A stretch of DNA of 64,000 nt, taken from contig OX442315.1 of assembly GCA_949358305.1 (NCBI GenBank), forward strand, positions 17,510,427-17,574,426, written 5' to 3'. The stretch is from Strigamia acuminata. Lineage: Eukaryota; Arthropoda; Chilopoda; Geophilomorpha; Linotaeniidae. The notes below the pieces were generated by a model that searched no databases, had not been told where the DNA came from, and saw nothing but the letters and a program-made list of their open reading frames with translations. Below, one piece after another: positions 1-61,682 of this stretch; position 1 is the first letter of the stretch, and each line of letters starts with the position of its first letter. The position numbers and the translations under genes were made by a program.

Positions 1-957
1 TGAATGAAATTTGAATTTGTGAATTGTTTATGATGAAATTGTTTATTTGATAAAGAATTTATTCATGGTGTTTTTGATAAAATTGAGAATTAATAGAGAG
101 AAATTACCTGAATTTGCTAATGAATAGTTTTGAATTTCAGAATATTTTGTAAATTGTTCATTGATAAAGTGTTTTGATGGAATTGAATATTAATAAGATA
201 TATTGTTCAGATTTATTAGTGAATTTGTTTCTTTTTCGGGGGATTTTGTAAAGAATTACTAATAGAGAGTTTTCTTGAATATTTACTGATGAAAATTTTG
301 ACAATTTTGAAATTGAATTATATAAAGATAATGACAATGAAAATTGAATTGTTTTGAAGTGGATTGTTTGATAATTGATTGTTTTTCAGGATATTTTGTT
401 GAATGTTTACTGATAGTTATTTAGTGTTTTTTATAAATGACCGTGAAAATTGAATTGTTTAATTATTGAATTTATTTCAGAAAGTGAAAGTGTTTGTTTT
501 GTGAAAGGTGTTTATTAATAAAAAGGAATTGCTTCGACCCAAAGGATTGTGTCTTCTCTACGTTTAATAAATCATTGCGGACTCTAGACGTTACGCGTTT
601 TCAAAATACGTAACGGATTACCTGCTCTCAGGTGTTAAGAAAGAAGAGGAGTTGGAAGAAGAGACAGCATTGAGCGTCAAGGTGACTGAGCGAAAGAGGA
701 AGCCAAAACCCAAAGAGGAACTTAAAACTCAAAAAAGGGAAGGTGAAACCCCGCAACAGCACCGTATACGAGTTGTTAGTGCTGATCTTCAAGCTGAATT
801 GTTTCCACACGAGGTGGAGCAATTAGGAGAACTATTGATACGGGAACAGAGTGATCTAGACGACGCAGACGAGAAGGACATTTTCCAAGACGTTGAGGAG
901 CAACCAAATTTAGAACTTTCATATTTGTGTATTAATAAAGAACAATCTCCAATTAAG

Positions 958-2076
958 ATGGCTAATGCTTCGCCATCGCCAGAAATGTTGGCAATACAAA
1001 CAGTATTACAAAATTTAGTGGTTAATAGAAGAAATCCAGTTGATTTTGATCCAGCCACTGGAAATATCGACACATGGTTAATTGGATACGAAGATACGAT
1101 TGCCGATGATACTGAAAGAATTAAACATCTGTCAATTGTGCTGAAACATTCTGCATCATCGTGGTATTTAGACCAACTTCCATTACATCCGACTAGAACT
1201 TGGACTGAATGGAAAGATGCGTTGAAAACAAAATTTCGACGACAAATAACAGCAATTTTGGCGAAATTACAAGCAATGCAGCACAAGGACGGAACAGCTT
1301 TGGAACACATGCAGAAAATATTAAAGGAATGCTCTTATGCAAGACCGTCGTTCACGGAAGATCAAAAGATATTTCACGTGTTTCAAGGACTGAAGAAGGT
1401 GATCAGAGATAAATTAGTAGCCAATTACCCAAAGACGTTGGACCAATTAACATCACAACTTGGATTGTTGGAAGCCCACGCATTCAATGAGGATCCTGCA
1501 GAAGTTTTACTAACCCTACTGCAAAAAGCTGTTGATACAACAGGTGAGGTGACACCGAGTTGCTTGGTAGAACCGAGCGACGTCAATAAAACAAAAGACG
1601 AGTTGTTAGCAGAGGTCAAAGTGCTAAGACAACAGCAGCAGTTTGGGGACGTTCAATATGCAGAGGTCACTCCAGTCTTCTACCAAAATCAATGGTATAC
1701 GCCACATCCAAACCAGGCCCAGTTCTATAATAGAGGAAACTTTAGAGGGCGACCTGGACAACAACGTGGATGGTGGAATAACAATAGCAATTGGAACCAA
1801 GGTAGAGGATGGAACAATAATAAAGGTCAAAACAGAGGCAATTGGAACAATCAGTGGAATAATTCTGGCCAAGGATTCCAACAACAACAACAGCCACAAC
1901 AGCAATGGAATCCACCGCAACAACAACAACAAGGTCAAAGACAGGGGAATCCAAATAACCAAGGTCACCCACGAAATCCAAACTATAAAGGTAAAAATTT
2001 CATTGAAAATTACCAAGGAGGCCGAGGTCAACGAGGAGCCCCACATGGTGGACCAGCTAATCAATCGGGAAACTAG
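958..2076 (+). CDS. gag: Gag of Ty3/Gypsy element
   Basis: This is the capsid/nucleocapsid polyprotein of the retrotransposon. The first ATG of the frame is at 958 and the stop is TAG at 2074-2076. The frame stays open upstream through 652, so an earlier non-AUG or spliced start is possible. The N-terminal two thirds resemble a retrotransposon Gag capsid: a tryptophan-rich helical block, with a segment like 'SSWYLDQLP' around residues 65-75. The C-terminal third has no CCHC zinc knuckle. It is instead extremely rich in Gln, Asn, Gly, Trp and Arg, with RG and WNN repeats, from about 1720 to 1960. Such a tail could bind RNA or condense, which is inference. Pol lies in the -1 frame and is reached through the slippery site at 2067-2073. 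Confidence 0.85.
   Translation: MANASPSPEMLAIQTVLQNLVVNRRNPVDFDPATGNIDTWLIGYEDTIADDTERIKHLSIVLKHSASSWYLDQLPLHPTRTWTEWKDALKTKFRRQITAILAKLQAMQHKDGTALEHMQKILKECSYARPSFTEDQKIFHVFQGLKKVIRDKLVANYPKTLDQLTSQLGLLEAHAFNEDPAEVLLTLLQKAVDTTGEVTPSCLVEPSDVNKTKDELLAEVKVLRQQQQFGDVQYAEVTPVFYQNQWYTPHPNQAQFYNRGNFRGRPGQQRGWWNNNSNWNQGRGWNNNKGQNRGNWNNQWNNSGQGFQQQQQPQQQWNPPQQQQQGQRQGNPNNQGHPRNPNYKGKNFIENYQGGRGQRGAPHGGPANQSGN
2067..2073 (+). promoter_or_regulatory. -1 programmed ribosomal frameshift site (GGGAAAC)
   Basis: The heptamer GGGAAAC fits the X XXY YYZ rule in the gag frame (G GGA AAC) and is followed directly by the gag stop TAG at 2074-2076. The pol frame is the -1 frame and is already open across this point. 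This explains how a Gag-Pol fusion could be made without a separate pol start codon. I did not identify a clear downstream stem-loop or pseudoknot. Confidence 0.75.
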
Positions 2077-5000
2077 AATGGCCACAAAGACGGAAAAACA
2101 AGAAGAAATTCAAAAAGAGAAAATTAGAAATCATTGAGTTGAACGCCACAGATGAACTTTTGCAGATTCCAGTAGTAGTGAATGGTTTGGAAGTCACTGG
2201 TGTCTTGGATTCCGGAGGTTATCGCAACATCATTAATGAAGATTTGGTAAGAACTCTGCAGCTCAAATACCAACCATGTCCACATGTTCGACTTAGAGTT
2301 GTAGATGGTTCATTGATAACCCCAGTAGGAAAAACCAGGATTACCATTGATGTTGGACAACAACAACATACTATTGAAGTGCTGATTGTCAGCGGATTTG
2401 GCAACCATTTACTGCTAGGAGATAATTTTTTGAGATCTGCAAGGTGCCAGCTCGACTATGACCAACAGAAGATCTTTGTAGGGCCAAAAGATAAACAACA
2501 AGAAGTATTCCCAATGTCCAAGAATTACACTGAACAAAACTATATTGCACGTGTTTTAAAACCAATAACGATACCAGCTTTACATGAATGTGTAGTACCA
2601 ATAAAAATAGCAAAGAAAGTTGATGATGAATTGTTTGTAGAACCATTAAGTGGAGTAATTGATCGATTTGGCGTGATTTGTTGCAAGACATTGACTAAAT
2701 TCAGAAAAGGTGAAGGAGTTCTGCGTGTTGCGAATCCAACTAAAAAGACAATCTATTTAGGAAAAAACTCAGCAGTTGCAAAAGCATTTTACGTGATTGA
2801 GTCTGGCTTGTTAGATGAAAAAAGAGCTGATCAATTTGACTTTAGCAAGGCCATGGCAAATGAGAATATGACACCAACTCAACAGGAATTGATGCGACAG
2901 CTGCTAGAGAAGAATTCGGATAGATTTGCAACATCTGACAGTGACTTAGGCAGAGCACAGGCAATAAAACATCGTATTGATACAGGAGACTCTCCTCCAA
3001 TCCACTTGCAACCTTATAGACGATCCATTAAGGAAAAAGAAATCGAGGAGGCTGAAACAAAGAAGTTACTTGAACAAGGAGTAATTAGAGAATCCGAGAG
3101 CCCATGGAGTGCACCAGTACTACTCATTAAGAAAAGAGACGGCAGATGGAGATTTTGCGTTGATTGGAGACGTTTAAACGCAGTAACGAAGAAAATGGTT
3201 TATCCCTTACCACGTATCGACGACACCCTAGATCAACTAGCGGGTGCGAAGTATTTTTCGATGATGGATCTCATTCAGGGATACCACCAAGTCGAAATAG
3301 ACGAACAAGATCGTGAAAAGACAGCGTTCACGACGTCAAGCGGACATTATGAGTTTAATGTCCTCGGAATGGGATTATGTAACAGCCCAGCCGCCTTTCA
3401 AAAATTGATGAATAAAGTGCTTGGGAACCTCTTGGGAAAGGTATGCATAGCGTACCTCGATGATTTAATAATATTCTCGAAGACATTCGAACAGCACCTC
3501 GTGGATGTGGACGCAGTTTTTGAAAAGCTCAGAATGGCAAACCTGAAAGTTAGGCTGAGTAAATGTACGTTTGCCACCGACACCATTCGATACTTAGGAC
3601 ATGTGGTTGATGCTGATGGAGTTTCACCAGATCCCAGGAACCTGGAAGCAGTCGCGAAGTTTCCACTTCCTGTGAACGTTAAACAACTACGTGGTTTTTT
3701 AGGACTCTGCTCTTATTACCGAAAATTCATCAAGGGATTTGCAGACATTTCTAAACCTCTGGTGAATCTCACTAAAAAGGACGAGAAGTTTGACTGGGGA
3801 CCACCCCACGATACAGCGTTCATCACACTCCGAAATGCATTAATAACAGTACCGGTGTTGGCGCATCCAGACTTTGCACAGCCATTCATAGTATCAACCG
3901 ACGCAAGTGCGTATGGAATGGGAGCCATTCTGAAGCAAAAGATCAACAACCAGGAGCGAGTTGTAGCGTATGCAAGCAAACTGATGAGCACAGCGGAACA
4001 AAACTACACCGCCACTGAAAGAGAGTGTCTCGCTATAATGTTTGCAGTACAGAAATTCAGACCTTACTTGTACGGACAGAAATTCCAAATAATAACCGAC
4101 CACCAACCCCTCCAATGGCTGAAGTCAGTCCGAAACCCCAATGGACGTTTAGCCAGATGGGCATTGCAATTAGTAGACTTTGATTTCGATATAGTGTATA
4201 AAAGCGGCAAAAAGCACACAGATGCCGATGCACTAAGTAGGATACCAGACCAGATGAGTGAAGAAGAAATAAAAAAATTACCTTCGCTTTTCTTGGAAAA
4301 TTTGGACCTCCCTGCACAACAGAGGATGGATCCCAAACTACTGGACCTAATTACAGCAGTTGAAAACCTAGAGCAACTTCCAAAGAAGAGGAGACGACCG
4401 CTTAAGCAGTACGTGCTCCACGAGAAAACGTTATTTAGGAAGAAAAACTCTTCAAGTTCCCTAAATACAGAAGGATTATTGCTAGTAGTTCCGAAACAAC
4501 TCCAGAAGGATGTATTGCATGAAATGCACGACGGATTACTAGGAGCTCACTTAGGTTTGGCAAAAACATGGAAACGAATAAGAACAAGATTCTTTTGGAC
4601 AAGAATTTACACTGACGTTAGAAAATACGTCTTGTCCTGCCAAAACTGCGCAAAAGCAAAGTCGATGACAACTCCAGCTAAAGGACTAATGCAACCGTGG
4701 TCAACCGTCTCAAAACCATTCGAGCGGATTGGAATGGACACACTTGGACCTTTCCCATTGTCAAAACTAGGAAATAAACATGTTTTCGTAGTGACTGATT
4801 ATTTGTCAAGATCTGTGATTGCAAGAGCTGCACCAGTAGGAACAGCTCTAGAAGCAGCAAAGACTTTGGTTTATGAAGTGATTCTTAAGGAAGGCAGCCC
4901 AAGAGAAATTTTAAGCGACCGTGGAACGGAATACAGGAACCAAATGATTGAAGAAGTATCTAATCTATTCAAAAGTTTGCATAAAACCACCTCAGGATAC

Positions 5001-5897
5001 CACCCAAGGACCAATGGATTAACAGAAAGATTTAATGCGACATTCGCAAAAATGTTGCAAAGTTATGTTAATGATGATCACACCGATTGGGATGAGTTCC
5101 TGCCATTTGTCCTGTTTTCCTACAACACGGGAGTTCATGAAACAACAGGTTACACACCGCACTATCTTCTTCGAGGATATGATGTGGATTTGACAATAGA
5201 TGTTAACCTAAATCTGCCCCAAAAAGAGTTCACGTTACGCACATCAAAATTCATGCAACAGGCTAGGAAAATTGCAAATGAACGACTTCAAAAGCAGTCA
5301 GAGAAAAGTAAGAAAAGATTCGACAAAGATAGAGTCAACAAAGAATTTGAACCAGGTGAATTGGTTTATTTGAAGACCATAAATAGAAAAGTTGGCCTGT
5401 CAGAGAAGCTTTTACCTCAATTTTCCGGCCCCTACGAGATTGTGCGACGAACAGCTCCAAATGACTATGAAATTATTAATTCCACACGAAAGAAAAGTGA
5501 TATTGTTAACGTAGAAAGGTTGAAACCGTATAAAGCAAGAATTGAAGAAGACATAGATGAAGCTTTGAAAGAAATGCCAGAGAAGAAAGTGAAATTTGCT
5601 GAAAAAGTGAAGAAAATCAGTAAAAAAGGAGAAATTGTAGTTGAAGAACTGGATAAACCAAAGCAAACCAAAGCAAACCAAAGCAAAGCAAAAGAACGTT
5701 ACATCGATGATAGTGAACAAATTTCCCTCAAATCATTGTTTGAACCGCAAACAGAACCCGAAAACACTGGAAAACAACTTAAAAATCCGCCACTAGATGG
5801 CGCGAATACGCAAAACGACGACTATCGTTCGCGCAAGCTCAGACCGAAGGCGAGAAAATCCTACCGCCATTGCTACTCCACATTTTCGCCGAGGTAA
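2073..5897 (+). CDS. pol: Pol of Ty3/Gypsy element (PR-RT-RH-IN)
   Basis: The frame is open from before the frameshift site to the TAA ending at 5897. The aspartic protease has a D-S-G-G active site (about 2208-2220). The reverse transcriptase has the YLDD catalytic motif near 3451 and the conserved FCVDWRRLN and FxVLGMGLCNSP blocks. RNase H begins near 3895 (STDASAYGMGA) and ends with a DHQPLQW block and a DADALSR block. The integrase has an HHCC zinc finger (about 4530-4660) and a D,D,E core: Asp in 'GMDTLGP' near 4737, Asp in 'LSDRGTEY' near 4917, then the Glu region. A Lys-rich tail with a KQTKAN-type repeat follows. There is no chromodomain. All catalytic motifs appear intact, so the enzyme set could be functional. 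Confidence 0.93.
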   Translation, partial: LEWPQRRKNKKKFKKRKLEIIELNATDELLQIPVVVNGLEVTGVLDSGGYRNIINEDLVRTLQLKYQPCPHVRLRVVDGSLITPVGKTRITIDVGQQQHTIEVLIVSGFGNHLLLGDNFLRSARCQLDYDQQKIFVGPKDKQQEVFPMSKNYTEQNYIARVLKPITIPALHECVVPIKIAKKVDDELFVEPLSGVIDRFGVICCKTLTKFRKGEGVLRVANPTKKTIYLGKNSAVAKAFYVIESGLLDEKRADQFDFSKAMANENMTPTQQELMRQLLEKNSDRFATSDSDLGRAQAIKHRIDTGDSPPIHLQPYRRSIKEKEIEEAETKKLLEQGVIRESESPWSAPVLLIKKRDGRWRFCVDWRRLNAVTKKMVYPLPRIDDTLDQLAGAKYFSMMDLIQGYHQVEIDEQDREKTAFTTSSGHYEFNVLGMGLCNSPAAFQKLMNKVLGNLLGKVCIAYLDDLIIFSKTFEQHLVDVDAVFEKLRMANLKVRLSKCTFATDTIRYLGHVVDADGVSPDPRNLEAVAKFPLPVNVKQLRGFLGLCSYYRKFIKGFADISKPLVNLTKKDEKFDWGPPHDTAFITLRNALITVPVLAHPDFAQPFIVSTDASAYGMGAILKQKINNQERVVAYASKLMSTAEQNYTATERECLAIMFAVQKFRPYLYGQKFQIITDHQPLQWLKSVRNPNGRLARWALQLVDFDFDIVYKSGKKHTDADALSRIPDQMSEEEIKKLPSLFLENLDLPAQQRMDPKLLDLITAVENLEQLPKKRRRPLKQYVLHEKTLFRKKNSSSSLNTEGLLLVVPKQLQKDVLHEMHDGLLGAHLGLAKTWKRIRTRFFWTRIYTDVRKYVLSCQNCAKAKSMTTPAKGLMQPWSTVSKPFERIGMDTLGPFPLSKLGNKHVFVVTDYLSRSVIARAAPVGTALEAAKTLVYEVILKEGSPREILSDRGTEYRNQMIEEVSNLFKSLHKTTSGYHPRTNGLTERFNATFAKMLQSYVNDDHTDWDEFLPFVLFSYNTGVHETTGYTPHYLLRGYDVDLTIDVNLNLPQKEFTLRTSKFMQQARKIANERLQKQSEKSKKRFDKDRVNKEFEPGELVYLKTINRKVGLSEKLLPQFSGPYEIVRRTAPNDYEIINSTRKKSDIVNVERLKPYKARIEEDIDEALKEMPEKKVKFAEKVKKISKKGEIVVEELDKPKQTKANQSKAKERYIDDSEQISLKSLFEPQTEPENTGKQLKNPPLDGANTQNDDYRSRKLRPKARKSYRHCYSTFSPR

Positions 5898-11922: not shown

Positions 11923-12927
11923 ATGCCCCGGCCCAAACATCGCGTGTGGATGCTCGGATTGGGTTTCCTCGTCTTCTGTACCATGCTCTACCTTCCTATA
12001 TTATTCAGTTTTCGACCACCGATGATCGAATGGTTGTCCATGAAGCGAGATCTTCGTTTCTACGTGTCCGAAACGAACGACACCGCCATTATATCTCCCA
12101 TCGAGACCTGTTTAGCGGCATCTGACCACGAATTGTTCATCATCGTCGTAGTTTGCTCATCCATAGACAACATGGCGGCGCGTGTTGCCATCAGAGCCAC
12201 TTGGGGCTCCGTAGCCACGTACAACCAGTCGCAATTCCGATTGCTCTTTTTTCTAGGCCGTTCCGAAAACGATAGTTCACAATCTTCCATTTTTAGAGAA
12301 AGCGAGGAGTACGGTGACATCGTGCAGGAGGATTTCCTGGACACGTACAACAACCTGACGTTGAAGTCGGTCATGATGTTGCTGTGGGTCGGGCGCCATT
12401 GTCAACGCGCCAAATTCCTCCTCAAGACGGACGACGACACGTTTGTGCACTTAGAAGCTTTGCGAACCGCTCTCAAGCAGCGCGATCAACCCAATTTGCT
12501 TTTAGGAAGTTTAATCTGCGGCGCCACGCCAATCAAGGACCGGAAAAACAAGTGGTACGCGCCCAGCGTCATGTTCCGGGAGAACGTTTATCCGAATTAT
12601 CTGTCAGGTACTGGCTACGTGGTGTCGCGAGATTTGATCCGTCCGTTACTCAAGACGGCGCTAGAAACTCCCTACTTCCACCTAGAAGATATTTTTATTA
12701 CGGGGATTTGTGCGAGGAAAAATCGAATTCGGCCTCAAGATCACGTGGGATTCAGTTACCAACGACGGAGGATGGATCCATGTTTGTTTCGAAGAGTTAT
12801 CACTAGTCACAGGATGAATCCCAACGATATGAGAAGGATGTGGTATCAGATGCGTCAAGTCGAGGGCTTGTGCAACGTGACGAGGAAAATGAGACTGAGG
12901 AATTATCACCCGCAGAGATGCTACTGA
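11923..12927 (+). CDS. Beta-1,3-galactosyltransferase-like protein (GT31)
   Basis: This single-exon frame encodes 334 residues and is a predicted type II Golgi membrane glycosyltransferase of family GT31. It has a short basic N-terminus, one hydrophobic anchor (about residues 9-29), then a luminal catalytic domain. Family motifs in order are RVAIRATWG (about 87), a FLGRS block, EEYGDIVQEDFLDTYNNLTLK (about 127-147), the metal-binding DDD in KTDDDTF (about 168-172), a YPNYLSGTGYV block, and EDIFITG (about 257). The family transfers Gal, GlcNAc or GalNAc in beta-1,3 linkage; the exact donor and acceptor cannot be told from sequence. The start is the ATG at 11923. The frame stays open back to a good acceptor at 11901, so an upstream exon could extend the cytoplasmic tail. 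AATAAA lies 71 nt after the stop. Confidence 0.9.
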   Translation: MPRPKHRVWMLGLGFLVFCTMLYLPILFSFRPPMIEWLSMKRDLRFYVSETNDTAIISPIETCLAASDHELFIIVVVCSSIDNMAARVAIRATWGSVATYNQSQFRLLFFLGRSENDSSQSSIFRESEEYGDIVQEDFLDTYNNLTLKSVMMLLWVGRHCQRAKFLLKTDDDTFVHLEALRTALKQRDQPNLLLGSLICGATPIKDRKNKWYAPSVMFRENVYPNYLSGTGYVVSRDLIRPLLKTALETPYFHLEDIFITGICARKNRIRPQDHVGFSYQRRRMDPCLFRRVITSHRMNPNDMRRMWYQMRQVEGLCNVTRKMRLRNYHPQRCY

Positions 12928-54859: not shown

Positions 54860-55129
54860 ATGAAAATTGCACTTTATGTAACACTTGTAGTCAGTCCAAA
54901 TTCAAAACATTTGATTTACAGCTTTTATCAATTGACAAAACGCTCTTTCCGTATTAAAAAAGATGCAATTTCACTAATAAAAAATGCAAAATTGGATCAC
55001 CTACACAGGACGCAGCAAATTTTGGACATTTTTAATACGAAGTTGCTGCAGTTTGTTTTATTTTGGGCGCTAATCACTTTTTTATGCGGTGATATTACAA
55101 TCGCAACTTTAAGTCTTATTTTATCTTAA
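54860..55129 (+). other. Open frame with hydrophobic C-terminus, doubtful
   Basis: An 89-codon frame ends in a predicted membrane helix (LLQFVLFWALITFLCG...) just 6 bp from the 3' end of the U2 sequence on the other strand. It faintly resembles the end of arthropod seven-transmembrane chemoreceptors, but I see no diagnostic motif. It could be a fragment, a last exon or chance. Confidence 0.15.
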
Positions 55130-55134
55130 TTATT

Positions 55135-55259
55135 ATGAGCTGAACCCAGATTTACTGCAATACTAGGACAACTCAGCAAGGCAGGAGCGAGCTCCAAAAC
55201 CCTCACATCGTTTCAAAAATCAAGCAAATATCACAGATCCCATTGGGATCGTATCAGAT
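55135..55259 (-). ncRNA. U2 snRNA, 3' portion (interrupted gene)
   Basis: Read on the minus strand this continues U2 from ATCTGATACG. It contains a perfect GATCCC-AAT-GGGATC hairpin, an Sm-site segment GATTTTTGA (55213-55221), stem-loop III with GGAGCTCGCTCC, and stem-loop IV with the near-invariant loop TATTGCAGTA. Stem IV pairs over CCTAG/CTGGG and GAGTTG/CAGCTC. The 5' part lies 6.4 kb away at 61620-61682, beyond a BEL/Pao element. The 5-bp CAGAT (55255-55259) is the target duplication. Confidence 0.92.
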
Positions 55260-55739
55260 TGTGAAAATCCCAGTTTGTGAATGTTAAAAGTTCGCTTTTT
55301 TGATGTAAATTCAGTTGGTTCAGGTTTCGAAAATTTCTAAGTTCTTTTTCAGTGTGTGAATACAAATAAATTCTAACTGCTCAACAAGAGCAGTCCTGCT
55401 TGGGTAAAGTGAAAGTTTGTACTGGTTTATTTTCGTTGAAAAACGATGTTAAATACATGAAATAATTAGTTCTTGGAAACAAGAACAAAACATACAAATA
55501 TAAATAGTTCTCAGAAAATGAGAACAAAAAGTCAAAAAAAAGGTCAAAAACTCTAAACAATAGAAAACGTCACCACATCTGGTGTAAATTTAGACACTTC
55601 TAGAATCACAACAAAAGACTCGGGTTTTCCCTTCAAAAAATTCGCAGAAGGCAATTAAAACAGATTACAGTAAAAACCCAAAATTTCCCAACACCAATTT
55701 AATACAAAATTAAAATACACTAAAACCCTAGTTTTTACA
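55260..55739 (-). repeat. BEL/Pao 3' LTR
   Basis: 480 bp, TG...CA ends, identical by eye to 61140-61619. In the minus orientation its first bases TGTAA supply the stop codon of the polyprotein. A minus-strand AATAAA lies near 55426. The inner flank is a run of nine C (sense strand) plus AG, not the purine tract expected next to a 3' LTR. Confidence 0.97.
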
Positions 55740-58700
55740 CTGGGGGGGGGTCGCTAACATCTGCGACAATGTCCTCGTGCGCTTCCAAAAGGCACAATCT
55801 TTGTATGGGACGCCTCAACTTCTTCCCTGTGGCGAGTCGGACCTCACAGGACCTCACTTTCCCATCCCGCCCAGGAAAAACAAGTGTTACCAATCCCATT
55901 GCCCACACTGACCTCGGTTGATTCTCGTCTTGTATCAACACGACGTCGTTAACCCTCAAATCCCTTTTGATGTTGTCGGTTCGAAATACCCTAAGCTCAA
56001 TCAGGTATTCGTGGTTCCAGCGCCTCCAAATCTGTTTTAGCAAGCGCTCACGAAGTCTCCATCGCTTCAAGAGTTCAACCGCACCAGCATCCATCTGTTT
56101 GGGGTCATGTTGATGAGTTCCTGGGAGCGAAATGTGACGTCTTCCAACTAGGAAGTGAGACGGTGTCAGCGGCTCTTTTTCCTGAGCATCTGCATACACG
56201 TATGAAATTGGTCGTGAATTTATCATCGCTTCCACTTCACACAAAGTGGTGGTCAACTCTTCGAATGTCAATACACGACGCCCCAAAATTTTCTTTAGTG
56301 ACACCTTAACCGTCCTCACCATCCTCTCCCAAAAACCTCCCCACCATGCTGCTCGCTCAACAATGAATTTCCATGTGATTTGGCGTTGCGAAAGAAAGTT
56401 ACCAATCTTGGTCGATTTAATGGCCCCCATCAAAACTCTTAATTCAGCATCGGCCCTCTTAAACGTTTTAGCGTTGTCCGAATATATTACCTCTGGTACG
56501 CAGCGACGAGCAAAAAATCTTTTTAATGCCATTACAAAATCATCTGTACTCATAGAAGATACTAACTCTAAATGAATGGCTCTTGTCACTGCGCACGTGA
56601 TGAGAGCAATGCAACACTTATTTCCCGCGCGTTGGTAAAGAGGGCCGGCGAAATCAATTCCTACTATTTGAAAGGGATCAGCTCTTCTGACTCGATCAAC
56701 TGGCAATGGCGCTTCTATTTGTCGCATCAAACGACCTTGGACTTTTCTGCAAATAAAACAATTATGAATTATCTTCTTTATACACGATCTCGCTCTTGGA
56801 ATCCAAAATCGCGTCCGTATTTCTGCGAGAGTGTCGCCGAGACCGCCGTGAAAAACTCGTTGATGCGCGTCTAATATCAAAAGTTCAGTAATTCGCTGTC
56901 CTCCTGGCAACACCCATGGTCCCTTAGCTTCTCTTCGAACCTCGCCCCACTCGAGTCTGGTTCGCACATGTAGAAGGTGGTGGTCGTCGAATGCGCAGTC
57001 GATTTGGCTCAACACGGAATCTGTCTCGACTCGTCGTCCCGCCTCAATTGATTTAATTTCACTCGAAAAATAAAGTTGCTGCACTGCACCAATCCAATAA
57101 TGCTCGGCGCGGCGTAATTCGTCTAACGACAATGGTGATCCGTTCCTTTCCTTTCGTTTCAAATTGTCCGCAAATCGTTGTACCCACCCCGTTCTGTGCA
57201 ACAAGCTCGTCCACGAACTGCATGTATTTAAATTGATTAAAAGTTCTTTCAAAGGTGGCTCGTCATCGATCACGACATTGACTTGTTCGTCGGCTTCTTC
57301 GTCGAATTCGGGTTCAATGTCCACCTGTGGCCAAGTGTTCTCGTTCTGTGACAACCATTTTGGCCCTTTCCACCAAATTTGGTCGTCCAACAGCTGTTGT
57401 GCGTCTATCCCTCTGGTCAGCAGGTCGGCTGGATTCTCTTTGCCGGGGACGTGGCGCCATTCCGCGTGTGGCGCGTTGAGTTGAATCTCCTCGACTCGTC
57501 GGGACACGAAAGGAATCGTCTTGCTGTTCCCCCGCTTCAGCCACGCCAACACTATGGTCGAATCCGTCCAACATATTGTCCTTGACGCCGGCAACTCGTT
57601 TAATTTAGCAATTAACCTCGATGACAGGAGTGCCCCCATCAATTCCAGTCGAGGCAACGTAATCGTTTTTACCGGAGCGATTCTAGATTTGGAGAGAATG
57701 AAACAAATTTTATTATTATTAGCATTGCCCACTCTGGCATAAATCACCACGCCATAAGCGAGCGGGCTGGCGTCGCAAAACACATGAATCTGAGCGTTCG
57801 AAAAGTCACTGCTGAAACCCATCCAACGTGGCACCTTAATCTTTGCAAGCAGTGGAACTTGATTTCTCCAACTTTGCCATCTCTCAGCTTCTTCTTCAGG
57901 CAATTTTTTATCCCACTCTAATTTCAATCGCCAAAGTCCTTGAAAAATTAGTTTTCCCGTTACACTGAATGGACTGACGAATCCGACTGGATCGAAAATG
58001 CTGGCCACCACTTGAATTACATGCCTTTTTGTGATTTGTTTTTCTTCTAATTTTTCCAAAAGTTCATTCATTTCGAGTGACAATACGTCCAAATTTATAT
58101 CCCAAATTAGACCCAAAACCTTCGTTATTGTTTTGTCGTTTGTCGCCGACGGTGTCATTCTTTCTCGCACCTGACTCGAGTTTGTCATCCACTTCGTGAG
58201 TTCCATGTTGGCCCCTTTTAATATCTCCGCGACCTCGTAACACGTTTTCGTCAGTATCGCCTCGTCGTGGTTGCTGTTGATAAAATCGTCGACATAAAAT
58301 CGCAACAATACTTGCAGAACCGTTTCTGGATATTGCTCGACGTATTTCATTAGATGCTCGCGGATGGTTGCGTTCAACAGGAAGGGGCTTGGTGTGGCTC
58401 CAAACAATACTCGAGTCTGCCTCAAAATTCGTAACTTCAACGGTCCCTTTCCATCCCACTCGTCACACAACCAAAAAAATCGCAAACAGTCCCTGTCGTC
58501 GATGTGAATGCCGATCTGGTGAAATGCCTTGACTATGTCCCCTATGGCGGCGTAAATGAAAGTTCTGAAATGGATTAACATTCTTATTATTTCAGGCAAC
58601 AGGTTCGGTCCAGTGAATAAGCAGTCATTTAAAGATTTGTTTTTGGCGCCATGTGACGAAGCGTCGCAAACGACACGCAATTTCGTCGTCTCTCGTTGCT

Positions 58701-61050
58701 CACGAACTACGGGGCTGTGTGGCAGGTAATAACATCTGTTTTTGTTGGTGTTTCCTGTTGGCACGTCTTCCACGATCCCCTCGGCTATTTGGCTGTTGAT
58801 TACTTCGCGATACTTGGCGTACAAACTCGGATCTTTTTTGAATTTGCGAACCAAATTCCAAAATCGACGAAGGGCGATGTTATAATTATCTTCCAACTCG
58901 TCCTTCGAGACCAACCAAGGTAGTCGCACTTCGTACCGCACGCCGTTCCATTTTAACGATCGTTTGAATCCTTCGAGTGCTTGTAGATCTTCGTCTTGTC
59001 TTCCGGTGGTGGATTCGTGCATGATTCCGATTGTGTCCAGCTCCCAAAATTTCTGTAATTTTAAATCTAAACTTTCTTCATATTTAGTCAAGTTTACTGG
59101 AATAATCAGATTTTTTTCTTTTCTGTCAATTTCTTCGTTTGACCCGTGAATGGTCCAACCAAACATGGTTTCAAGTCCCACCAATCCTGGCCCAAGTCTC
59201 TCAACACGACCGTTCACAATTTTCCAAAAATAGTCTATCCCAACCAAAATTGATACGTCACCGTGTCGGACTTGGTTCTGATCGATGTTTAGTCGAATTC
59301 CGTGTTTGTTCAGCATTGTTTGAATGTTGTCGTCTGCTCTCTTGACCACGGAGCTGGTGATCCACGGCACCACGATTGCTTGCACCTCAATCCGACTGTT
59401 TTCCCCGTCTCGTGCGCACAAAGTTACTCGAACTTGTTTGCGCTGTGTCGGCGTCGGTTCCCGTTGACCAAACGGCACAATATTCATTACAGCTTCCCCG
59501 ACCTCTTGTGCATTCAGTTCTTTTGATAACTTCTCTGTGATGAACGTCCGGTGGCTTCCTCCGTCGAAAAAGCATTGCACCGTCCTTTTCCTTTCATCCG
59601 ACTCAACGTCCACCATCAGCACCTGAAAATACAACTCATTTTTGTTAGCACTCCACACGGCTGTTGTTTTAATTTCCTCCGGGTCGTCGTCCTCGCAGAG
59701 CTGTGTATGATGGCGCCGCTTGCATTTCTCACACTTTATTTTCGCCGTGCATTTAGTCACCCGATGCCCTTTATCAAAGCACAAAAAACATCGACCCGCT
59801 CGCATCAAATTTCGTCTTTTCTTGTGGGGCGGCAGTGGGCAGGCTTCCGTCGCGTGCTCGGTGACCTCGCAATAAATGCACTCATTTGTGCTGATGGTGA
59901 GGGCGTTGACCGATGGCAGAGTCACTTTCTTTTTAACCCATTCAGTGTTTTTTGTAAACGTGGGTCGGCTTGTTTTCTTTTCCTCCAAATTTGACTCTTT
60001 GTTATAATCATTAGCGGCGGCCGTTCGCTCCCTCAACCCAATTTGCTTGTTTAAATAAGTGAGGAAAGCTTTAATGTCAGTCTCGTCGTCGTTGTCCCCC
60101 TGCGCGAATCCCATCGCGATAAAATCTGGCACGGCGGCCATCAATTTTGGGCACAACAGAGCGCCAAATGTGGCCACTTCAACTTCCAAGTTCTCCAGGC
60201 TGCGCACGTGCAACTCGCACTCGTCATACAGCCTCCTGAGCGCCGTCAAATCCCCAATCTTTTTCACCGCTGGCACTCTTTCTATGGCGCGCAAATGGGC
60301 ATTAATTACGACATTTTTCTTGCCAAAACGATTTTTCAAAAGTTCCTTGGCGGTTTCATAATTTTCATCGGTTGGATTAAGTCCAGCAACAACACTGGCC
60401 GCCGGCCCCTCCAAAAATGTTTTCAGATATACCAGTTTAGCCTTTGGTGTAAGTCTCTTATTGCTCCCGATTCCAATTTCGTAATTTGACCAAAAGTCGC
60501 ACCATTTGGTCGGGTCCCCGTTATATTTGTTCATATTAATAGTGGGTAATTTCATAGAACCTGCATCCTGCTCCTCGTTGACCGGTGGCGGCACGGCTGG
60601 TGGCGGCAAATGGACTTGGACCTGGGCGGCGATTTGAGCGGTGATGGCCTGTTGGTTCAGCAGCATCTGGGCGGCGATCGCGTCCTCCAGTTTTTTTTGG
60701 TTGGCGGCCGCTGTCGCCTCGTTCGCTTGTCCCACCTCGGCTCGTCGTATCTCGTCCGCGTGCTGCACTAAGTCCTCCATGTGGTCTATCAGGCGTTCCT
60801 GGTAGATGTCCGCTGTTTCTTGGTCGGCCGTGGCTTCATTGTCGTCGGTGATCAGGTTTCCAATCCGTTCGTCCAGTCCCGCCAAAATGTCCTTTTTGGC
60901 TTGTAGTTGGGCTCTGTGTCGCGCCAATTTCTTCAAATCGACCGGCACCTCTGCCAGCAAGCCGGCTGTCGAGTTGGTCAGCCGGGTGCACGCCGTTCTC
61001 GCGGTCGTGCGATTCCTCTTCAGCTTATCGATTTCCGAAATTTCGGCCAT
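55735..61050 (-). CDS. BEL/Pao Gag-Pol polyprotein
   Basis: This single frame of about 1771 residues runs from ATG 61050 (open further to a GTG at 61077) to TAA 55735-55737, which lies inside the LTR. In order it has an N-terminal coiled/Ala-Gln-rich region, a DUF1759-type Gag domain (KLPTINMNKYNGDPTKW, about residue 170 on), zinc knuckles (CxxC motifs around 59730-59890) and a Pao-type aspartic protease with D-G-G-S in FDGGSHRTF. Then come a reverse transcriptase with FYVDDF (about 58277), RNase H (FCDASPLAYG; TDSTIVLAWL), an integrase HHCC finger (HGGLGDTL...CFICRK), a D,D,E core (GIDFAGP, YSDNAKTF, GGFWERMV) and the C-terminal DUF5641-like domain (NDVVLIQDENQPR). No stop or frameshift interrupts it. 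Confidence 0.95.
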   Translation of the reverse strand: MAEISEIDKLKRNRTTARTACTRLTNSTAGLLAEVPVDLKKLARHRAQLQAKKDILAGLDERIGNLITDDNEATADQETADIYQERLIDHMEDLVQHADEIRRAEVGQANEATAAANQKKLEDAIAAQMLLNQQAITAQIAAQVQVHLPPPAVPPPVNEEQDAGSMKLPTINMNKYNGDPTKWCDFWSNYEIGIGSNKRLTPKAKLVYLKTFLEGPAASVVAGLNPTDENYETAKELLKNRFGKKNVVINAHLRAIERVPAVKKIGDLTALRRLYDECELHVRSLENLEVEVATFGALLCPKLMAAVPDFIAMGFAQGDNDDETDIKAFLTYLNKQIGLRERTAAANDYNKESNLEEKKTSRPTFTKNTEWVKKKVTLPSVNALTISTNECIYCEVTEHATEACPLPPHKKRRNLMRAGRCFLCFDKGHRVTKCTAKIKCEKCKRRHHTQLCEDDDPEEIKTTAVWSANKNELYFQVLMVDVESDERKRTVQCFFDGGSHRTFITEKLSKELNAQEVGEAVMNIVPFGQREPTPTQRKQVRVTLCARDGENSRIEVQAIVVPWITSSVVKRADDNIQTMLNKHGIRLNIDQNQVRHGDVSILVGIDYFWKIVNGRVERLGPGLVGLETMFGWTIHGSNEEIDRKEKNLIIPVNLTKYEESLDLKLQKFWELDTIGIMHESTTGRQDEDLQALEGFKRSLKWNGVRYEVRLPWLVSKDELEDNYNIALRRFWNLVRKFKKDPSLYAKYREVINSQIAEGIVEDVPTGNTNKNRCYYLPHSPVVREQRETTKLRVVCDASSHGAKNKSLNDCLFTGPNLLPEIIRMLIHFRTFIYAAIGDIVKAFHQIGIHIDDRDCLRFFWLCDEWDGKGPLKLRILRQTRVLFGATPSPFLLNATIREHLMKYVEQYPETVLQVLLRFYVDDFINSNHDEAILTKTCYEVAEILKGANMELTKWMTNSSQVRERMTPSATNDKTITKVLGLIWDINLDVLSLEMNELLEKLEEKQITKRHVIQVVASIFDPVGFVSPFSVTGKLIFQGLWRLKLEWDKKLPEEEAERWQSWRNQVPLLAKIKVPRWMGFSSDFSNAQIHVFCDASPLAYGVVIYARVGNANNNKICFILSKSRIAPVKTITLPRLELMGALLSSRLIAKLNELPASRTICWTDSTIVLAWLKRGNSKTIPFVSRRVEEIQLNAPHAEWRHVPGKENPADLLTRGIDAQQLLDDQIWWKGPKWLSQNENTWPQVDIEPEFDEEADEQVNVVIDDEPPLKELLINLNTCSSWTSLLHRTGWVQRFADNLKRKERNGSPLSLDELRRAEHYWIGAVQQLYFSSEIKSIEAGRRVETDSVLSQIDCAFDDHHLLHVRTRLEWGEVRREAKGPWVLPGGQRITELLILDAHQRVFHGGLGDTLAEIRTRFWIPRARSCIKKIIHNCFICRKVQGRLMRQIEAPLPVDRVRRADPFQIVGIDFAGPLYQRAGNKCCIALITCAVTRAIHLELVSSMSTDDFVMALKRFFARRCVPEVIYSDNAKTFKRADAELRVLMGAIKSTKIGNFLSQRQITWKFIVERAAWWGGFWERMVRTVKVSLKKILGRRVLTFEELTTTLCEVEAMINSRPISYVYADAQEKEPLTPSHFLVGRRHISLPGTHQHDPKQMDAGAVELLKRWRLRERLLKQIWRRWNHEYLIELRVFRTDNIKRDLRVNDVVLIQDENQPRSVWAMGLVTLVFPGRDGKVRSCEVRLATGKKLRRPIQRLCLLEAHEDIVADVSDPPPV

Positions 61051-61121
61051 TTTTACGTTCAAAATAATTTTCAACACTCACGTTCTTGACACAAATTTTT
61101 CAGGTCCGGGTTAAATTAATT

Positions 61122-61139
61122 TCCCGGGTTTCGGCACCA
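61122..61139 (-). promoter_or_regulatory. Primer binding site, tRNA-Phe
   Basis: Directly after the 5' LTR, the 18 nt starting TGGTGCCGAAACCC complement the 3' end of an animal tRNA-Phe including CCA. Minus-strand DNA synthesis of the element should start here. No spacer separates it from the LTR. Confidence 0.85.
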
Positions 61140-61619
61140 TGTGAAAATCCCAGTTTGTGAATGTTAAAAGTTCGCTTTTTTGATGTAAATTCAGTTGGTT
61201 CAGGTTTCGAAAATTTCTAAGTTCTTTTTCAGTGTGTGAATACAAATAAATTCTAACTGCTCAACAAGAGCAGTCCTGCTTGGGTAAAGTGAAAGTTTGT
61301 ACTGGTTTATTTTCGTTGAAAAACGATGTTAAATACATGAAATAATTAGTTCTTGGAAACAAGAACAAAACATACAAATATAAATAGTTCTCAGAAAATG
61401 AGAACAAAAAGTCAAAAAAAAGGTCAAAAACTCTAAACAATAGAAAACGTCACCACATCTGGTGTAAATTTAGACACTTCTAGAATCACAACAAAAGACT
61501 CGGGTTTTCCCTTCAAAAAATTCGCAGAAGGCAATTAAAACAGATTACAGTAAAAACCCAAAATTTCCCAACACCAATTTAATACAAAATTAAAATACAC
61601 TAAAACCCTAGTTTTTACA
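61140..61619 (-). repeat. BEL/Pao 5' LTR
   Basis: 480 bp, identical by eye to the 3' LTR at 55260-55739. It is flanked outside by CAGAT (61620-61624) and inside by the tRNA-Phe primer binding site. It should carry the element's promoter. Confidence 0.97.
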
Positions 61620-61682
61620 CAGATATTAAGCTGATAAGAACAGTTACTACATATGATCTTAGCCAAAAGGCCGAGAAGCGAT
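61620..61682 (-). ncRNA. U2 snRNA, 5' portion (interrupted gene)
   Basis: The minus strand starts ATCGCTTCTCGGCCTTTTGG at 61682, the classic U2 5' end. Stem-loop I (GGCC-TTTT-GGCT), the branch-point recognition sequence GTAGTA (complement at 61645-61650) and GTTCTTATCAG follow, then TTAATATCTG, where the BEL/Pao element interrupts it. Across the insertion the host sequence resumes as ATACG, exactly as U2 should. Total U2 length without the insert is about 183 nt. It differs from the usual animal U2 beside GTAGTA (CATATGTAGTAACTG), which weakens the branch-point stem-loop. AATATC can still pair with GATATT of the 3' half. Confidence 0.95.

Follow-up and report, generated by a model that had tools for sequence, protein, structure and literature searches.

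The window, i.e. the whole stretch of DNA analysed here, has a length of 64,000 bp and originates from the genome of Strigamia acuminata (G000:C3:17510427-17574426). The genome searched comprises 237.5 Mb in 157 contigs. In the window a U2-like gene on the minus strand is split by an LTR retrotransposon of 6,360 bp (55260-61619, minus strand), which lies between the two parts of the gene. The following features were identified at this locus:

61625..61682, minus strand: 5' part (nt 1-58) of a divergent U2-like gene, identified by Rfam U2 match, exact 5'-end pattern and alignment
61620..61624, minus strand: target-site duplication, copy 1, CAGAT on the plus strand and ATCTG in U2 sense, read from the sequence
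61140..61619, minus strand: 5' LTR, 480 bp, 480/480 identical to the 3' LTR
61122..61139, minus strand: primer-binding site TGGTGCCGAAACCCGGGA, directly inside the 5' LTR
55735..61077, minus strand: gag-pol as a single open frame of 1,780 aa, its final two codons within the 3' LTR
55742..55750, minus strand: run of nine C (element sense) at the place expected for the polypurine tract, read from the sequence
55260..55739, minus strand: 3' LTR, 480 bp, 480/480 identical to the 5' LTR
55255..55259, minus strand: target-site duplication, copy 2, ATCTG in U2 sense, read from the sequence
55135..55254, minus strand: 3' remainder of the divergent U2-like gene, 92% and 86% identical to the corresponding halves of two paralogues

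Along the minus strand, U2 nt 1-58 are followed by ATCTG, the element (61619-55260), a second ATCTG and again U2 sequence, which starts with ATACG at 55254. These breakpoints and the CAGAT target duplication had been proposed in the initial annotation and were confirmed in the sequence at the same coordinates. The 5' part gives an Rfam U2 match at 61577-61682 with 76.2 bits (gathering score 46), which past 61620 extends into LTR sequence, and the exact U2 5'-end pattern was matched at G000:C3:17572081-17572108. When the two flanks of the element are joined, they align to canonical U2 loci with 76-78% identity over 192-195 bp, the join being one base short, and to the two divergent paralogues with 89.6% over 405 bp and 78.3% over 382 bp. 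Both paralogues are unoccupied, lie on the same contig and run uninterrupted across the insertion point. They are paralogous empty sites.

Two further features were found in the window. Adjacent frames of 474 and 1,252 aa at 652-5897 represent a second LTR-type element, with matches to a Ty3-like capsid (below the cut-off), protease, reverse transcriptase, RNase H and integrase. A frame of 334 aa at 11923-12927 contains a Galactosyl_T domain (161 bits) and is probably a host gene.

Within the 1,780-aa frame of the inserted element, Pfam detected DUF1759, DUF1758, RVT_1, Peptidase_A17, Integrase_H2C2, rve and DUF5641. Peptidase_A17, the Pao retrotransposon peptidase, reaches 157.5 bits, and DUF1758 and Integrase_H2C2 also exceed the cut-off. 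RVT_1 and rve are significant yet stay under the curated cut-offs, and an RNase H domain was not found by Pfam in this frame. The 17-18 bases of the primer-binding site are the same in all 12 copies inspected. A tRNA-like fragment (L100, C1:44870015), which we take to be tRNA-Phe-like, has a CCA-ended tail to which the 18 nt after the 5' LTR are complementary. A genome search with the 5'-end pattern of a full tRNA-Phe gene as primer source gave no matches. The tRNA 3'-end pattern matched one exact place and one place with two mismatches, the exact one being the truncated, CCA-bearing copy. In this fragment (G000:C1:44869950-44870050), a tRNA-like 3' half that is truncated, the CCA is part of the DNA, as though a mature tRNA had been its template. 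At the position of the polypurine tract, the 13 copies inspected have a C-rich tract (element sense) whose place is constant and whose length varies.

BEL/Pao elements (Belpaoviridae) are described with LTRs of 0.2-1.2 kb and a total length of 4.2-10 kb, with gag-pol in one or two frames encoding a Pao-type peptidase, reverse transcriptase and integrase, with an 18-nt primer-binding site for tRNA-Arg or tRNA-Gly, and with a polypurine tract of ~10 nt before the 3' LTR (PMC8742986). The 480-bp LTRs and the total of 6.36 kb are within these ranges, and the element likewise has gag and pol in one frame with a Pao-type peptidase, reverse transcriptase and integrase. It differs from this profile in two points, the primer-binding site, which fits the tRNA-Phe-like tail instead of tRNA-Arg or tRNA-Gly, and the C-run which replaces the polypurine tract. 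Because of the deviating primer-binding site, the name "BEL/Pao-type" rests on Pol, and placement in the genus Semotivirus is not claimed. A term search for a polypyrimidine tract in BEL/Pao elements found none in PMC3118150 or among the literature matches listed, and we do not claim novelty for the C-run.

Compared at 12 sites with two LTRs, the LTR pairs show 0 to 3 differences, the window pair none. Among the scored LTR places, the window site and four other sites have 100% (rounded) identity to the window LTR, from which we infer that the family was active lately. The initial annotation had described a young BEL/Pao element splitting a U2 snRNA gene. Its description of the element holds, the gene being a divergent U2-like copy and not a canonical one.

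Used as query against the genome, the split gene's 3' half revealed three places: the window, C3:17144440-17144587 (92%) and C3:18213130-18213277 (86%). Both unbroken paralogues (L070 and L071) carry the U2 5' end in place. Together with the window portions 55129-55259 and 61620-61682 they form a subfamily which spans 1.1 Mb of C3 and shares an upstream region. The three copies depart from canonical U2 alike, chiefly in the 3' half and immediately ahead of the GTAGTA that pairs with the branch site. The Rfam U2 scores of L070 and L071 are 143.5 and 141.9 bits, and canonical genes reach up to 189. Of 45 Rfam pairs compared on the alignment, canonical copies form 42, 42 and 41, L070 and L071 42 each and the window copy 41, in structure rows fitted to the Rfam alignment of L071 and biased toward that structure. 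In stem IIb, canonical genes have G-C at pair 1 and T-A at pair 2, where the three divergent copies have A-T and C-G, respectively; at pair 3, L070 and the window copy have C-G and L071 has T-A. The victim is a non-canonical U2, a member of a divergent three-copy subfamily which keeps the U2 fold.

The U2 part of the window copy agrees with L071 at 168/189 aligned positions (gaps left out), whereas the 150 bases upstream agree at 92/149. This difference, together with the paired stem changes, points to past selection on the structure of the subfamily. Between the window copy and L070 there is no such contrast between gene (177/188) and flank (139/150), and therefore the window copy may already have been weakly constrained before the insertion. 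The window copy is one base shorter before GTAGTA, and L070 is without one base of the Sm-like stretch. A recent relaxation of constraint seems likely from the equal similarity of gene and flank and from the bases missing in these two copies. The victim was also considered as a plain dead pseudogene. This was rejected as too simple, given the U2 part conserved relative to L071 and the paired change in stem IIb. A comparison of the promoters with those of U1 and canonical U2 showed no clear common element by eye.

In total, 88 U2 5' ends were found in the genome, 74 of them in an array on C1, 13 on C3 and one on C6. Three of them (C3:6874539, C6:12157221 and C1:62316795) showed no continuation by pattern and were left unread. 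The tandem array lies outside the window at G000:C1:62256203-62529593 and has a unit of 1,746 bp. Between nt 28 and nt 46, 37 of its 74 genes are intact and 36 are split; one gene (C1:62316795) is without an explained break. After the break, the 36 split genes continue into one of three LINE 3' ends, called family A (6 genes), family B (3) and family C (27). The spacing is ~2.05 kb in 26 cases, ~5.15 kb in 5 and odd in the remainder. The inserts, a LINE or its ORF1-only relative, are oriented antisense to U2 and flanked by a 17-bp duplication (U2 nt 41-57). At the 3' side, all 16 interrupted copies read end at the same base and are followed by antisense U2 sequence from nt 57 on. At the 5' side, U2 nt 41-57 are repeated in each of the six junctions read (L082, L083, L096-L099).

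A family-A insert (L083) encodes an ORF1 with three zinc knuckles and an ORF2 with AP-type endonuclease, reverse transcriptase and zf-RVT according to Pfam, and a family-C insert (L082) has ORF1 alone. In the family-A LINE, Exo_endo_phos and RVT_1 are above the Pfam cut-off, the AP-type endonuclease is located at the N-terminus, and no other nuclease was found by Pfam at E<=0.001. In a PDB sequence search, ORF2 matched LINE-1 ORF2p (9.7e-60) ahead of R2 (1.7e-17). Over the 3' 1.4 kb, families A and B have a similarity of 87%, and family C has no more than 24 bp in common with these two there. It is thus more probable that the bond was reached three times independently than that a single insert was simply amplified. 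Of the 48 matches listed for the family-A 3' end, 47 fall within C1:62.23-62.60 Mb; the other is a partial match at C1:58.00 Mb. With the family-C 3' end, all 40 scored places are in the array (102 candidates). The nine dispersed canonical U2 genes on C3 are all free of the array LINE.

PMC4640811 names Keno and Utopia as the sole elements known up to then to target U2. Keno is described there as a LINE with an AP-type endonuclease from frogs, fish, lancelet and hydra; its 3' flank is the same as that of Utopia, and downstream U2 begins at nt 39 (PMC4640811). Utopia is a LINE with a restriction-like endonuclease, known from interrupted U2 genes in a Phytophthora array, and arthropod Utopia makes no target duplication (PMC4640811). 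Measured against these descriptions, the array LINE resembles Keno in its U2 target and AP-type endonuclease, but is followed on its 3' side by antisense U2 from nt 57 and not by U2 from nt 39. It shares with Utopia the U2 target and the interrupted U2 genes in an array, and is unlike Utopia in its N-terminal AP-type endonuclease and antisense insertion, and unlike arthropod Utopia in its 17-bp duplication. By these descriptions it differs from both in site and orientation, and from Utopia also in the endonuclease. Dada elements, too, target multicopy small RNA genes; they are reported to be DNA transposons (PMC3706591), and nothing Dada-like was found in the window as far as tested.

We lean towards the view that the C1 array houses an undescribed U2-specific LINE lineage with an AP endonuclease, inserting antisense after nt 57, with families A and B full-length-like and C ORF1-only, in 36 of 74 genes. 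By analogy, this lineage would be the U2 counterpart of R1/R2 in rDNA. No other reports of such a LINE were found in the literature searched, which took in few subscription papers and excluded Repbase. The BEL element inserted in the window has no relation to this lineage.

The BEL duplication corresponds to U2 nt 60-64 (canonical numbering), only 2 bases from the nt 41-57 duplicated by the array LINE. From this closeness one could argue that U2 nt 41-64 is a general weak spot of exposed or open DNA for unrelated retroelements, BEL/Pao and LINE. We regard this as very unlikely. There is a single BEL event, its victim is a divergent gene and not an array gene, and the LINE has its own endonuclease and the same bond in 16 of 16 copies, so that no weak spot is needed. 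The closeness of both target sites may be a coincidence.

The initial annotation had raised a target preference of the BEL family for U2 or other snRNA genes, with chance as the alternative, and had set the flanks of other copies as the test. A genome search with the LTR scored 40 of 66 candidates, all 40 matching, and covers the family and its near relatives. These 40 places were assigned by hand to 23 sites, 19 with two flanks and 4 with one. Three tandem LTR places with identical flanks were counted as one site; they lie 6,601 bp apart at G000:C3:3642217-3655880 and represent the tandem duplication of one old insertion. Only one of the 23 sites, that of the window, is located in U2. All 19 two-sided sites show a 5-bp duplication, in 19 different sequences, and the flanks of different sites have no common stretch >36 bp. 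In a comparison of the joined flanks, or of the single flank where only one was available, to U2 and U1 genes, U2 was matched by the window site with up to 93% over 342 bp. The other 22 sites gave only words of 10-18 bp (E >=0.014), many of which are expected by chance.

An Rfam scan of the loci of these 22 sites, in which two of the three duplicate places of site S9 were left out, detected no snRNA gene at E<=1 except in two U2 paralogue loci that had been added deliberately. The nearest match to a small RNA gene is a 5S-like stretch in locus L024 with 27.5 bits (cut-off 38), ~630 bases from the LTR. It is probably due to chance, like several sub-threshold miRNA-type matches from the same scans. 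Of the 88 U2 5' ends, only that of the window has a scored LTR within 290 kb; for the second closest the distance is 294,726 bases.

A preference for U2 or snRNA genes, either by sequence or by tethering of the integrase to snRNA promoter factors, could draw on the one U2 insertion observed against 0.0016 expected among 23 sites (88 U2-like genes x ~190 bp in 237.5 Mb). The location of 22 of 23 sites elsewhere without an snRNA gene nearby, and the lack of a scored LTR near any of the 74 array genes or 13 other U2 5' ends, speak against it and make it scarcely credible. Strict U2 targeting by the family is refuted, and on these counts of scored sites we also reject a wider preference of the BEL element for U2 or snRNA genes. 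Least probable of all is that the split is an assembly join, since, in the assembled sequence, the LTRs are identical within an exact 5-bp duplication and the flanks are continuous as in the two unoccupied paralogues; an artefact is rejected on these grounds. The insertion in the U2-like gene is real and young.

We therefore favour, with a probability of about 0.93, the chance insertion of a recently active BEL/Pao-type element into a tolerated, divergent U2-like gene, by a family which does not choose snRNA genes. Chance, offered initially as the alternative, is the best reading of the site counts. A single U2 hit is improbable for one family taken alone; it is compatible with chance only as one element picked afterwards from the many transposons of the genome. 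Integration would have followed the normal integrase pathway, with a cut staggered by 5 bp, and the landing of the element in U2 would be fortuitous, the family selecting neither U2 nor other snRNA genes. That the victim belongs to a set of three divergent copies, and that intact canonical U2 genes remain elsewhere (9 of 9 loci on C3 and 37 of 74 genes in the C1 array), probably explains why the hit survived.

U2 targeting would have been new for LTR elements, and its refutation counts for that reason: a target preference does not follow from a single conspicuous insertion. More valuable than the targeting claim is the U2 subfamily of three divergent copies, in which paired changes appear to preserve the stems. 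The array LINE with its own site and orientation is likewise more interesting than the BEL insertion, although it lies outside the window. The half-split U2 array bears on the question of how splicing is kept going when U2 genes house a parasite.
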